A stretch of DNA of 64,000 bases from Haloprofundus halophilus (GCF_003439925.1 NZ_QQRR01000001.1:1426001-1490000), one strand, 5' to 3'; shown: positions 30,109 through 34,414, numbered from the stretch's first letter. The notes: generated from the letters alone by a model not told the origin. Program-made: numbers and translations.

Positions 30109-30117
30109 CTTTATCAT
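30109..30117 (+). promoter_or_regulatory. TATA box of the DUF7504/CHAT-like operon
   Basis: CTTTATCAT 24-32 nt before the ATG at 30141, inside a locally AT-rich stretch (30100-30140). Spacing fits a leaderless mRNA. Confidence 0.55.
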
Positions 30118-30140
30118 ATACGTTATCTAACAAAAGACCA

Positions 30141-30818
30141 ATGCGTGCCGAGGGCCGAAGTCGCGGAGAGGAGTCGGTAGACCCGCTCCGAGGGAAGCTG
30201 ATGCAGTTGAAGAGCCGGGGCTGCAATCTCCTCGTCACGGGGGCAGTGTCGGAGTCGGTGACCGCCCGAGCGACCCAGCGACTGCTCGGGTCGCCGGTGG
30301 AGGACCGCAAGCGACTCGTGACGCTGACCGAGGCGCCGACGAGAGGCGTCGACGCCCGGCTCCCCATCGGCGTCTCCGCCGACGACGCGGACGTGAGGGT
30401 CGTCGAACGTCGGCGCGCCGACCGGTCGACCGCCGAGCGTGCCGGACACGACGTATCGGACGGCGACACGGAGCTCCGCCGTCTCGAACGCGACATCTCG
30501 CGCGCCATCGACTCGTTCGACGACGGGAGTGGATTCGCCCCGAGCGAGCTTCGGCTCTCGGTCGATTCGCTGGGGACGCTCTCGGAGACGTACGAGACGC
30601 CGCAGGTCTGCGGCTTCCTCCGTCGAGTCTGCGACGTCGTCGAAGACAGGAAGGGGATGGGCCACTACCACCTATCCCTCCCGGACGACAGTCCGCGGGT
30701 CGACCAGTTCGAGCACGTGTTCGACGCGCGCATCGAGCTCCGTCAGCGCGAACCGTACGGCCCCGAACAGCGGTGGCACGTCCCGGGCTACGGGACGACG
30801 GGGTGGATACAGATATGA
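30141..30818 (+). CDS. DUF7504-type protein (degenerate RecA/KaiC-like fold)
   Basis: A 225-residue cytoplasmic protein. GCNLLVTGAVSESVTARATQRLLG and RKRLVTLTEAPT open it, a variable acidic middle (about 85-125) follows, and the end has SELRLSVDSLGTLSETYETPQVCGFLRRVCDVVEDRKGMGHYHL (key residues R-L-S-V-D-S-L, M-G-H-Y-H-L), which resembles the second half of RecA/KaiC ATPases. No Walker A motif exists, so ATP hydrolysis is unlikely. It matches a halophile-only family (DUF7504 as I recall). The CHAT-like gene starts 10 nt after its stop, preceded by GAGGGGG, so one operon. Confidence 0.78.
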   Translation: MRAEGRSRGEESVDPLRGKLMQLKSRGCNLLVTGAVSESVTARATQRLLGSPVEDRKRLVTLTEAPTRGVDARLPIGVSADDADVRVVERRRADRSTAERAGHDVSDGDTELRRLERDISRAIDSFDDGSGFAPSELRLSVDSLGTLSETYETPQVCGFLRRVCDVVEDRKGMGHYHLSLPDDSPRVDQFEHVFDARIELRQREPYGPEQRWHVPGYGTTGWIQI

Positions 30819-30828
30819 GGGGGAAGCC

Positions 30829-32940
30829 GTGAGCACGCTCCGCTGCGTCCCATTGAACGGGCGGGACGGTATCCGCCTCGTCGACAGTATCGAGAACGCG
30901 CGGTTCGAGCTGTACACGCCCGAACCGGTCGTTCCGCGGCAGGCGGGCCCCTCGGCGTTCTGTTTCCCGGTCGGCCTCGCGGTCGAACTTCGCACGACCT
31001 CGCTTCGCCTGCCGAAGTTGGCAGGGGTGATCGTACGAACCCAGGACGGACGGACCGTCACGCAGTCGATGAACCGCACCGGCCTCTCGCTCGACGCCGA
31101 CGCCTACGACGTCGAGGTGACGACGGCACCGATGAAGCTGTTCGTCGCCGTCGACGACGCCGTCTCGATACGCTACGGCGAGCGGAGCACGACGTTCGAG
31201 TTCGACGGTCCGACGCGCGTCTACGTCGGCGCACGGTCGTTCCACGAGCGGCCGGCCGGTACCGTCGTGACGCCGGACGACCCCGAGGAGACGATGCGCG
31301 CCGTCTCGCTGCTCGGGTCGGCGTTGAAGACGACGACGCCGGAGCGGTCGTTTCCGACGCTTCGGGGCCACCCGCCGCTCGTCGAGCGCGGGGAAACGTT
31401 CGACGCCCCCGACCGCCTCGAAGCGCCGGAGACGGGCGTGACGCTCGTTCTTCCCCCGGAGCGCTCGGCGGTGTACGCCAGCGCGCCGCTGGCGTACTAC
31501 CTCGGAGCCACGGTCGTTCCCGGGTCGGAGGCGCGGCTCGACGTCGCCGGCCGGTCGTTCCCGCTCGCACCCGACGGCGACGTCGAGCGCGAGCTCGGGC
31601 GGACGCTCCGGCAGGTGTTCTTTCTGGACTGTCTCACGCGGACGGAGGGGTACTACCCCGTCGACCTCCACGAGCGGCACGCCGTCGAGACGGCGTTCGA
31701 CGTCGCGTTCGCCTCGCTGTACGAGTTGCCGCTGGACGAACAGCTCGCGGAGTACCTCTCGATGCCGTTCGAGGACCTCGAACCGTACCTTCCGGCGTGG
31801 AACCTCACGACGGACGTCCGACCGACCGCGGAGAACGTCGAGATGCTCCCGTTCGTCGCCAACGACCTCTCGTTGGTTCGGTGTCCCGACCGACTGTCGC
31901 TCACGCCGCCGGAGCCCGAACCGAGGGCGGTGACGGATTTCTTCCGCCGAGCCACCCGCGCACCGGCCGCGAACGGGGCGAGCGAAACGCTCGTCCGCGG
32001 CGCGTCCGACGCGGCGGAAACCGAGGAGATAGTCCACCCGCGACCCGCGGACACGGTCGAACACGCCTGGGTCGGTGAAGGGTTCCCGCTCGGGGCGAGC
32101 AAGGCGACGGCGGCGTCGTACCGCCGCCGCCTCGAACGCGACGTCTCCGGACGGACGAGCATCGACATCACCGTCGTCTGCAACGACGAGCAGATGCGCG
32201 AGGAAGGAGTCGTCGCCGAGCTGTACGGCCTCAGGGACCTGTTGCAGTTCGAAATCGACATCCGGTACGACCTCACCCGCGAGGAGCTGACCGAGGTGCT
32301 CTCGCGGCCGACGAACTTCCTGCACTACATCGGCCACGTCGACCACCGCGGAATGCAGTGCGTCGACGGCTTCCTCGACGCGCAAGAGCTCGACGACGTG
32401 GCCGTCGAGTCGTTTCTGCTCAACGCCTGCAGTTCGTACAAGCAGGGCGAGGCGCTGGTCGAACGCGGAAGCTACGGCGGCGTCGTGACGCTCTCGGACG
32501 TGACGAACACGACGGCGACGAAACTGGGACAGACGCTGGCGCGGTTGCTGAACTGCGGGTTCACGCTCCGGTCGGCGCTGACGATAGCCCAACAGGAAGT
32601 GTTCACCGCGAACCGGTACATCGTCCTCGGCGACGGTGGGTTGTCGCTGTGTCAGAACGAAAGTGGGGTTCCGAGTGTACTCCACCTCGACCACAAGCAG
32701 GCTGACGACACGTACGAAATAGAGATAGAGTACTATCCGGCGAAAGCCTACGACTTGGGTTCGCTGGCAAAGCCGCTCATCAGCGCGACCGACAAGTACT
32801 ATCTGGCGACTGGCTCTATCGGAAAGTTCGAGGTGAGCGCCGACGAAACCGAACGGTTCCTGAGAATGGAGCGGGCGCCAGTGAAAATCAACGGTTCGCT
32901 TCGGTGGAGCGACGAGTTCTGTACGAACCGCGACGAGTAA
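30829..32940 (+). CDS. CHAT/caspase-like cysteine protease homologue
   Basis: A 703-residue protein beginning at GTG after a GAGGGGG ribosome-binding-like run. Residues 1-430 are a large beta-rich region of unknown fold. Residues about 440-620 have the layout of a CHAT peptidase: RTSIDITVVCNDEQM, then FLHYIGHVDHRG (His499, His503), DGFLDAQEL, FLLNACSSYKQGEALVERGSYGGVVTLSDV (catalytic-type Cys534) and a closing RYIVLGDGG that parallels the CHAT 'GDP' end. H-x3-H and N-A-C match the dyad of CHAT, separase and caspases. A 60-residue C-terminal extension follows. CHAT proteases act in type III CRISPR and gasdermin defences; here the role is inference. No signal peptide. Confidence 0.75.
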   Translation: MSTLRCVPLNGRDGIRLVDSIENARFELYTPEPVVPRQAGPSAFCFPVGLAVELRTTSLRLPKLAGVIVRTQDGRTVTQSMNRTGLSLDADAYDVEVTTAPMKLFVAVDDAVSIRYGERSTTFEFDGPTRVYVGARSFHERPAGTVVTPDDPEETMRAVSLLGSALKTTTPERSFPTLRGHPPLVERGETFDAPDRLEAPETGVTLVLPPERSAVYASAPLAYYLGATVVPGSEARLDVAGRSFPLAPDGDVERELGRTLRQVFFLDCLTRTEGYYPVDLHERHAVETAFDVAFASLYELPLDEQLAEYLSMPFEDLEPYLPAWNLTTDVRPTAENVEMLPFVANDLSLVRCPDRLSLTPPEPEPRAVTDFFRRATRAPAANGASETLVRGASDAAETEEIVHPRPADTVEHAWVGEGFPLGASKATAASYRRRLERDVSGRTSIDITVVCNDEQMREEGVVAELYGLRDLLQFEIDIRYDLTREELTEVLSRPTNFLHYIGHVDHRGMQCVDGFLDAQELDDVAVESFLLNACSSYKQGEALVERGSYGGVVTLSDVTNTTATKLGQTLARLLNCGFTLRSALTIAQQEVFTANRYIVLGDGGLSLCQNESGVPSVLHLDHKQADDTYEIEIEYYPAKAYDLGSLAKPLISATDKYYLATGSIGKFEVSADETERFLRMERAPVKINGSLRWSDEFCTNRDE

Positions 32941-33075
32941 TCACGGACCGTTGATGCAGATCGAGTGGTTCGCCGCCACGGCTCCCGCCTGCGAGAGCAG
33001 GAGGGTCATCGTGAACAGGACGCCGATCATTCGCGGGTGGTCGCGCAGGTAGCTTGCGATTGGGTGGTCGCTCAT
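32941..33075 (-). CDS. 44-aa membrane peptide (DUF7503-type)
   Basis: Read directly from the minus strand: MSDHPIASYLRDHPRMIG, one hydrophobic helix (VLFTMTLLLSQAGAVAA, residues 19-35) and a short end NHSICINGP with a single Cys. Its stop abuts the stop of the CHAT-like gene with no base between them. An ATG two codons earlier (33081) is possible. It matches a halophile-only small family (DUF7503 as I recall) that I associate with DUF7504 neighbours. Small size and a lone helix suggest a membrane-active or substrate peptide; no function is shown. Confidence 0.75.
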   Translation of the reverse strand: MSDHPIASYLRDHPRMIGVLFTMTLLLSQAGAVAANHSICINGP

Positions 33076-33100
33076 GTACATCCGCTACGACACGCGGTGG

Positions 33101-33140
33101 TGAAATTTAATTAACTAAAATAATCTTATAAATGTATAGT
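33101..33140. promoter_or_regulatory. AT-rich divergent promoter region
   Basis: Forty bases almost free of G/C (contains TTAATTAA and CTTATAAATG). On the minus strand, TTAATTAAATTTC lies about 26-40 nt before the 44-aa peptide start. On the plus strand, TTATAAATG could serve the HTH gene through a leader of about 120 nt. This is the lowest-GC stretch of the window. Confidence 0.5.
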
Positions 33141-33285: not shown

Positions 33286-33936
33286 ATGGGCGTCGTTGCC
33301 GAGTTCTCTATCCCGGTGGAGTCGTTCGCACTCGCAGAGACGTTCGACCGCGTTCCCGACGTACACGTCGAGGTCGACCGTCTCGCAACGCACAGTCGAG
33401 AGTGGGTACTGCCGTTCCTCTGGGTGTCCAGCGAGAGCGAGTCGACGGAGGTGGTGCGGGAGACGGTAGCCGACGACTCGACGGTGGACGAACTCACCGT
33501 CGTCGGCGAGTGGGCGTCGATCGCGCTCTACAACGTCCACTGGAGCGAGTCAGTCCAGCAGTTGGTCGACGAGATAACCGACCAACACGGTGTCGCCCTC
33601 TCGGCGAGGGCCCACGACGGCAAGTGGTCGCTCAGGCTCCGGTTCGTCGACCGGTCGATATTCGAGGACTTCCGGACGTACTTCGACGACCACGACCTTC
33701 GGTTCGAGTTGGTGCGCATCCGGGAGATGCAGGAACCGAAACAGCGCGAGTACGGCCTCACGACCCCGCAGCGGGAGACGCTCGTCACCGCGTTCGAGAT
33801 GGGCTACTTCACGGTTCCGCGGAAGACGAACATCACCGACCTGGCCGACGAACTCGGCGTGTCGCCGAACGCCGTCTCGCAGCGGCTTCGGCGGGCGAAC
33901 GCGTCGCTCGTACAGAACACGCTGCTTCTCGACTAA
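33286..33936 (+). CDS. Bacterio-opsin-activator-type HTH regulator
   Basis: A 216-residue transcription factor. Residues 1-150 form a sensor-like domain (MGVVAEFSIPVESFALAETF...VHVEVDRLATHS) common in halophile Bat-like proteins. Residues 158-210 are an HTH_10 domain: LTTPQRETLVTAFEMGYFTVPRKTNITDLADELGVSPNAVSQRLRRA (key residues Q-R-x-x-L, G-Y-F, P-R, L-A-x-x-L-G-V-S). Ligand and targets unknown. Located just beyond the CHAT-like module and may regulate it. Confidence 0.9.
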   Translation: MGVVAEFSIPVESFALAETFDRVPDVHVEVDRLATHSREWVLPFLWVSSESESTEVVRETVADDSTVDELTVVGEWASIALYNVHWSESVQQLVDEITDQHGVALSARAHDGKWSLRLRFVDRSIFEDFRTYFDDHDLRFELVRIREMQEPKQREYGLTTPQRETLVTAFEMGYFTVPRKTNITDLADELGVSPNAVSQRLRRANASLVQNTLLLD

Positions 33937-34042
33937 CGCTCCGACTGCGGAGGCGGGCGACCGGCGTCTGACCGGGGCTCGTCCGGCCTCGGGTCGCCTT
34001 CAGAGTTGAGTGCGCGGCGTCAAGGAGGTCGCAGAACTGTGG

Positions 34043-34414
34043 ATGTGTATGAACGGACCGACGGCGACGAACTCCCCCGAAGCGACCGAACTCGACGCGG
34101 ACGAGTGGAACGAACTGTTCGACGCGCTCGCGGTCGACCGCCGACGGACGGTTCTGCTCGAACTCGTCGAGCGGGGTGCCCCGTTGTCGGTGGACGCGCT
34201 GGCAGAGGCCGTCTTCGAGCGGCACGGGCCGGGAGCGGACGCACCGCACGCCGAGTCGACTGCCGGAATCGAGCGCCTCCGAATCGAACTGTACCACGTC
34301 GACCTCCCGAAGTTGGCCGCCGCGGACCTCGTCGCGTTCGACGAGGAGACGCAGCGGGCCTCGGCGACCGAGCGGACGGCCGCGAGCGCCGAACTCCTCG
34401 ACGGGTTGCGATAG
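34043..34414 (+). CDS. DUF7344-type winged-helix protein
   Basis: A 123-residue protein. LFDALAVDRRRTVLLELVERGAPLSVDALAEAVFE (key residues L-x-V-x-R-R-R, L-x-x-L, L-A-x-x-V) is the opening of the halophile winged-helix DUF7344, followed by LYHVDLPKLAAADLVAFDEETQ, the wing that ends with the usual H-x-x-L-P-x-L. Probably a DNA-binding regulator. Starts at 34043 or six nt later. Follows the HTH regulator by 106 bp on the same strand. Confidence 0.75.
   Translation: MCMNGPTATNSPEATELDADEWNELFDALAVDRRRTVLLELVERGAPLSVDALAEAVFERHGPGADAPHAESTAGIERLRIELYHVDLPKLAAADLVAFDEETQRASATERTAASAELLDGLR

Follow-up and report, generated by a model that had tools for sequence, protein, structure and literature searches.

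A haloarchaeal CHAT-family protease gene and a convergent DUF7503 peptide gene: a possible co-diversifying pair joined by a hypervariable cassette

A CHAT-family protease and the small DUF7503 protein encoded tail-to-tail with it in haloarchaea may, as we tentatively propose, form a co-diversifying pair, in which an exported peptide is matched by one domain of a cytosolic protease. We analyzed this pair, by computation throughout, starting from a 64,000-nucleotide (nt) stretch of the Haloprofundus halophilus genome (GCF_003439925.1, NZ_QQRR01000001.1:1426001-1490000; this whole stretch is called the window). At positions 30,109-33,140 of the window, a gene for a DUF7504 protein of 225 amino acids (aa) is followed after 10 nt by a gene with a GTG start for a 703-aa protein, and the stop codon of the latter touches that of the small gene on the opposite strand at 32940/32941. 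The gene positions, the sizes, the gap and the stop-to-stop arrangement were all as described in an earlier note made from the sequence of the window. The proposal draws on features read from sequence, namely a protease domain with its catalytic dyad, the linkage of the two genes, a leader with a cleavage signature, a hypervariable cassette across the junction, and co-variation between the two parts of that cassette. The signal-peptide-like structure of DUF7503 with its tail, and the cassette with its co-variation, are new here. If confirmed, the pair would represent a new kind of archaeal peptide-controlled proteolysis.

The match of the 703-aa protein to the Pfam CHAT model PF12770 was below threshold (17.3 bits, cut-off 24), and a sequence search of the PDB with this protein gave no match. 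PF12770 was matched independently by 29 of 30 homologues. When the domain profile of the family was aligned by hhalign with a profile built from 20 bona fide CHATs of the same phylum, the probability was 97.4%, with a single-template E-value of 1.1e-11, and H503 and C534 fell on the catalytic His and Cys of the CHATs; the control profiles (N-terminal region, DUF7504, reversed and shuffled) gave probabilities of at most 0.4%. In addition, H499, G502, H503, N532, C534 and S536 were invariant in all 106 homologues containing the CHAT domain. The full-length structure model was poor, with a predicted local distance difference test (pLDDT) score of 64 and a predicted template modelling (pTM) score of 0.34, and its PDB search was uninformative. 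The AlphaFold2 model of residues 404-640 reached a pTM of 0.66, with a pLDDT of about 75-94 in the core, and all 15 of its Foldseek matches in the PDB below 1e-3 were CHAT/Craspase, separase, caspase or DdvA entries, including SAVED-CHAT (9.5e-6), separase, the DdvA anti-sigma factor, Craspase TPR-CHAT and caspase-11. By profile, dyad and predicted fold, these results place the 703-aa protein firmly among the CHAT proteases (clan CD). The earlier note had made the same assignment and had named the fold, the conservation of H503 and C534, and linkage outside this genome as points on which its proposal could fall; each was examined, and none refuted it. The family shares with SAVED-CHAT, TPR-CHAT (Csx29, Craspase) and separase the caspase-like fold, the order of His and Cys, and the GH and NAC/SAC motifs. 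Unlike those proteases, it has an N-terminal region of its own and an extra hypervariable C-terminal domain, lacks SAVED, TPR and CRISPR parts, lies beside a convergent peptide gene, and shows a near-core distribution.

The small protein belongs to DUF7503 (PF24335; 77.4 bits, cut-off 27, E-value 6.1e-22), a Pfam family to which no function is attached, and its gene was found to be strictly linked to the protease gene. All 114 DUF7503 genes in the retrieved loci were convergent with a CHAT gene, so the linkage of protease and small peptide extends well outside this genome. The stops were mostly no more than about 25 nt apart, with a 4-nt overlap in 34 pairs and adjoining stops in 18, and a CHAT gene was present in every locus that had been retrieved by DUF7503 alone (L078-L087, L090-L127). 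A plasmid whose annotation names the protease 'caspase family protein' showed the same arrangement. Among 294 Halobacteria genomes, the CHAT family was detected in 273, representing 69 of 78 genera, compared with 251 for DUF7503, and none of the 21 CHAT-negative genomes contained DUF7503. Since DUF7503 never occurs in CHAT-negative genomes and a second peptide-linked CHAT paralogue of the same genome repeats the layout identically, the arrangement is not a product of chance. In an unbiased census of 75 CHAT-family genes from 32 genomes, 35 genes were peptide-linked, all with an intact dyad; 30 were intact without a peptide, and 10 had lost the dyad, none of them with a peptide. The tree suggested that the peptide was an old acquisition of one clade, followed by about three losses, one of which coincided with loss of the catalytic dyad in a clade of nine pseudo-CHATs.

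Alignment of 86 distinct DUF7503 sequences revealed a conserved leader (consensus Y-L-x-x-[HN]-P-[KR]-M-x-G-V-L-F-T-x-x-L-L-L-[ST]-Q-A) and a short tail. At the predicted cleavage site, position -3 was Ala or Val in 86 of 86 sequences and position -1 was Ala in 85, while position -2 was free, which fits the rule for type I signal peptidase. The tail beyond this site measured 9 aa in 70 sequences, 8 aa in 13 and 7 aa in 3; it was uncharged in 78 of the 86 and ended in Gly-Pro in 82. Judged by this signature, DUF7503 looks like a Sec-type precursor from which signal peptidase would release a 7-9-residue tail. It could instead be a membrane-anchored substrate or effector of the CHAT protein, comparable to gasdermin or Csx30, with cutting or docking at the invariant HP-[K/R]-M of its cytosolic N-terminus and a freed helix acting in the membrane. 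CHAT enzymes often cleave the product of an adjoining gene; a K or R lies beside the helix in all 86 peptides, the helix is highly conserved, and the clade without the dyad also lost the peptide. That joint loss, however, was a single event, many intact CHAT copies have no peptide, and a substrate role leaves unexplained the hypervariable tail, its co-variation with the C-terminal domain of the protease and the strict A/V-x-A site; we consider it unlikely. The functional tie to the protease suggested in the earlier note stands, while for its membrane effector an exported and cleaved precursor is the likelier description.

Evidence for a joint role came from comparisons between species, which address divergence between them rather than polymorphism within them. 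They covered 42 Halorubrum-type loci, two further genera (15 and 12 loci) and Haloprofundus. In all four genera, a cassette of about 300 bp coincided exactly with the peptide tail plus the C-terminal domain of the CHAT protein and lay between conserved flanks. In the Halorubrum-type loci, nonsynonymous (pN) and synonymous (pS) diversity were 0.02-0.15 and 0.28-0.43 before residue 612 of the protease (0.27 and 0.45 in the linker), and 0.40-0.45 and 0.78-0.82 from residue 612-613 to the end. The boundary was sharp, with a pN of 0.03 and a pS of 0.42 at residues 570-612 compared with 0.39 and 0.78 at residues 613-645. On the peptide side, the leader gave a pN of 0.04-0.05 and a pS of 0.10-0.34, the tail 0.40 and 0.76, and the Gly-Pro end 0 and 0.70; the edge lay at the predicted cleavage site, where pS rose from 0.18 at codon -10 to 1.20 at codon -9. 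A similar pattern was observed in the two further genera and in Haloprofundus. The raised pS indicated that relaxed protein constraint alone cannot be the cause. Positive selection on the tail was rejected, as pN/pS was 0.53 and not above 1; the diversity was therefore read from the raised pS and from block exchange, not from the ratio of nonsynonymous to synonymous substitution rates (dN/dS). A diversity-generating retroelement was also rejected, there being no match to the reverse transcriptase model PF00078 in the genome.

The cassette might be no more than a recombination hot spot or a pair of weakly constrained gene ends, with the two genes linked only by convergent, overlapping transcription. 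Adjacency alone can co-transfer segments, and constraint on the leader DNA extends to its synonymous sites: codon homozygosity in the Halorubrum-type leader was 0.95, where the CHAT gene predicts 0.73 (p 5e-5). Rare codons are kept as well, GCA being present in 42 of 42 loci although it makes up 6% of the Ala codons in the genes of the window. This synonymous constraint may result from recombination at the cassette flank. However, the predicted RNA fold of the peptide mRNA was no more stable than shuffled sequences, the leader mRNA showed no pairing with the CHAT mRNA beyond shuffles, the Gly-Pro end kept a pN of 0 within variable DNA, and the boundaries matched protein features. Moreover, in two Haloprofundus genomes, both peptide-linked paralogues had the cassette (pS 0.62-0.84) and the peptide-less paralogue did not (0.08-0.10), so the cassette goes with the peptide link and not with the gene end as such. 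A hot spot or slack gene ends thus seem an improbable explanation.

The two halves of the cassette also varied together. In close species pairs, the catalytic domain was 94-96% identical and the leader mostly 95-100%. Some of these pairs were alike in both segments (C-terminal domain 0.79-0.90, tail 0.80-0.93) and others unlike in both (0.58-0.70 and 0.57-0.77), with a few intermediates. Partial Mantel tests of the tail against the C-terminal domain, given the catalytic domain, yielded r values of 0.43, 0.47 and 0.38 in the three genera (p 0.0005, 0.0005 and 0.0065), and the same test against the CHAT linker was not significant. In one genus (g27), weaker correlations linked the tail with the leader and with the N-terminal domain as well. 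A hypervariable, co-varying and block-exchanged cassette would also suit antagonism or kin discrimination, with the peptide as a toxin or non-self signal and the C-terminal domain as allele-specific immunity or recognition. Against this, copies number one or a few in nearly every genome, no gene alongside could be recognised as serving export or immunity, and the uncharged 9-mer resembles no halocin known to us. We regard such a role as rather improbable.

Under the co-diversifying pair that we favour, DUF7503 would be made as a Sec-type precursor, and signal peptidase would cut after A/V-x-A, freeing an uncharged peptide of 7-9 residues with a Gly-Pro end. Most simply, the peptide would then be re-imported by an oligopeptide ATP-binding cassette (ABC) transporter, as in the RRNPP/SHP-Rgg systems of Firmicutes; genes for oligopeptide-binding proteins do exist. 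Re-import, or recognition before export, is needed because the protease looks cytosolic. The last ~90 residues of the CHAT protein would act as a receptor-like specificity domain, whose binding of the peptide would activate or inhibit the protease, making the proteolysis of one or more targets dependent on a self-type peptide. The tail-to-tail order would set the two specificity segments side by side, so that recombination could exchange them together while the flanks stay conserved. In this scheme, we infer that the peptide is exported, cleaved, re-imported and bound, and we likewise infer the sign of control and the targets.

Several points weigh against this explanation. No membrane segment could be recognised in the CHAT protein; the tail, once exported, would have to come back, unless the protease meets it beforehand. 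No regulator or target gene is linked to the module. For an ordinary signal peptide, the leader is unusually well conserved, which hints at a further role. The Mantel tests correct for shared ancestry only in part, and adjoining DNA segments can be swapped as a block without binding each other. The pS of the C-terminal domain is near saturation and perhaps inflated by alignment; the Halorubrum tail is free of gaps and unaffected.

A broader claim, which we hold more tentatively still, is that a secreted hypervariable 7-9-mer controls the cytosolic protease through a co-evolving C-terminal receptor domain across the class, as a means of peptide communication or self-recognition. To our knowledge, this would be the first archaeal system of peptide-pheromone type, and its output would be proteolysis. 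If the claim is true, the co-varying junction would allow direct study of whether archaea communicate or recognise themselves through peptides. In SHP-Rgg/RRNPP systems, a small hydrophobic precursor with a short C-terminal peptide adjoins the gene of a cytosolic receptor. As those systems are generally described, DUF7503/CHAT resembles them in that its small hydrophobic precursor is encoded next to a cytosolic partner, and differs in that the partner is a CHAT protease and not a TPR/HTH regulator. At ComQXPA and other Bacillus pherotype loci, a highly polymorphic peptide locus is matched by receptor specificity, and groups recognise their own peptide (PMC4408185). DUF7503/CHAT likewise has a hypervariable peptide that co-varies with an adjoining segment, for which we suggest a receptor role. 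Unlike ComQXPA, it has no isoprenyl transferase, histidine kinase or response regulator; its partner is a protease, its genes are convergent, it is archaeal, and its signalling role is putative.

The earlier note had placed the module in anti-viral defence or programmed cell death. CHAT domains are known in defence systems, and SAVED-CHAT and Craspase were among the best structural matches. The module is near-universal in Halobacteria, however, and its surroundings are of a housekeeping kind: in this family, the neighbours are an AstE/AspA-like gene and the gene for threonine synthase, and elsewhere they include translation genes and elongation factor 2 (gene identities partly read by eye). 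None of the three proteins matched any PADLOC family, PHROG gave no convincing match for the module, and no relative was found in 2.9 million viral contigs. Together, these surroundings and null results speak against a defence island, and we consider a defence or death function very improbable. Caspase-like proteases had been regarded as nearly absent from archaea. The near-universal CHAT family is a candidate source of haloarchaeal caspase-like activity, and one that can be checked in the genetically tractable Haloferax volcanii. In this species, DUF7503 and DUF7504 were matched in our profile controls; the Pfam CHAT model gave no match there, and the presence of both families makes it very probable, judging from sequence profiles, that H. 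volcanii holds a CHAT protein of this family. In H. volcanii extracts, LEVDase activity is very strong and sensitive to zVAD, and no gene was assigned to it (PMC3615174). This activity also counts in favour of a death module. Two points weigh against CHAT as its source: archaea of other lineages are reported to have such activity too, and the proteasome is raised by the authors of that study as a possible source (PMC3615174).

Table 1. Features of the CHAT/DUF7503 locus, in positions of the window
Feature	Position	Strand	Evidence
DUF7504 protein, part-time upstream partner	30141..30818	+	PF24336, E-value 4.9e-50
CHAT-family cysteine protease gene (predicted), 703 aa	30829..32940	+	profile, motif and fold evidence
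N-terminal region, residues 1-403: predicted beta-rich domain, helical region, variable linker	30829..32037	+	no Pfam match
CHAT catalytic domain, residues 404-612	32038..32664	+	hhalign, AlphaFold2 model, Foldseek
H499-x-x-G-H503 motif, predicted catalytic His503	32323..32337	+	conserved in 106/106
N532-A-C534-S-S536 motif, predicted catalytic Cys534	32422..32436	+	N532, C534 and S536 in 106/106
Hypervariable C-terminal domain of the CHAT protein, residues 613-703	32665..32937	+	jump in pN and pS at residue 612, four genera
DUF7503 precursor gene, 46 aa (44 aa from second ATG at 33075)	32941..33081	-	PF24335, E-value 6.1e-22
Conserved hydrophobic DUF7503 leader, ending in A/V-x-A signal-peptidase-like site	32971..33081	-	alignment; synonymous sites also constrained
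Variable tail NHSICINGP, predicted mature peptide with invariant Gly-Pro end	32944..32970	-	alignment, pN/pS
Hypervariable cassette across the convergent junction (CHAT C-terminal domain and peptide tail)	32665..32970	.	pN/pS, co-variation

The upstream protein matched DUF7504 well (PF24336, likewise a family with no function attached; 170.9 bits, cut-off 27) and DUF7090 weakly. In the census, a DUF7504 gene lay upstream on the same strand in 9 of the 35 peptide-linked CHAT genes and in 0 of the 40 other CHAT-family genes; by this count, DUF7504 is an accessory of some CHAT copies. Of the three-gene unit in the earlier note, the CHAT/DUF7503 linkage therefore remains and DUF7504 as a constant member does not, and its role as an obligatory sensor or adaptor is doubtful, most peptide-linked copies lacking it. 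Of the eight DUF7504 copies in this genome, seven exceed the cut-off of the family, and most of the eight lie apart from CHAT genes. In the window, a Bat-type helix-turn-helix (HTH) gene (33286-33936) and a DUF7344 gene (34010-34414) adjoin the module. The earlier note had counted these two regulators with it, yet counterparts were found beside 0 of 74 other module loci, including that of Haloprofundus marisrubri, whose CHAT protein is 82% identical, and their position appears incidental. Among the open-licence literature, we found no papers naming DUF7503, DUF7504 or DUF7344.

Further CHAT relatives were also observed. The nine pseudo-CHATs (L162-L170), from Halorubrum and two other genera, have kept the N-terminal region and lost the His and Cys; they coexist with a predicted active, peptide-linked copy, and a dominant-negative or scaffold role is possible. 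A common membrane partner was sought in a second CHAT clade, with intact dyad and without DUF7503, but none was found; a TbsP-like regulator gene (PF19138/PF23336) adjoins in 19 of its 20 loci. Four genomes outside Halobacteria (L158-L161) encode full-length older relatives without a peptide, one with a degraded dyad. Finally, the CHAT genes of Halorubrum tebenquichense DSM 14210 (L026) and of the uncultured A07HR67 assembly (L037) are each broken into separate reading frames, while DUF7503 is kept in both.

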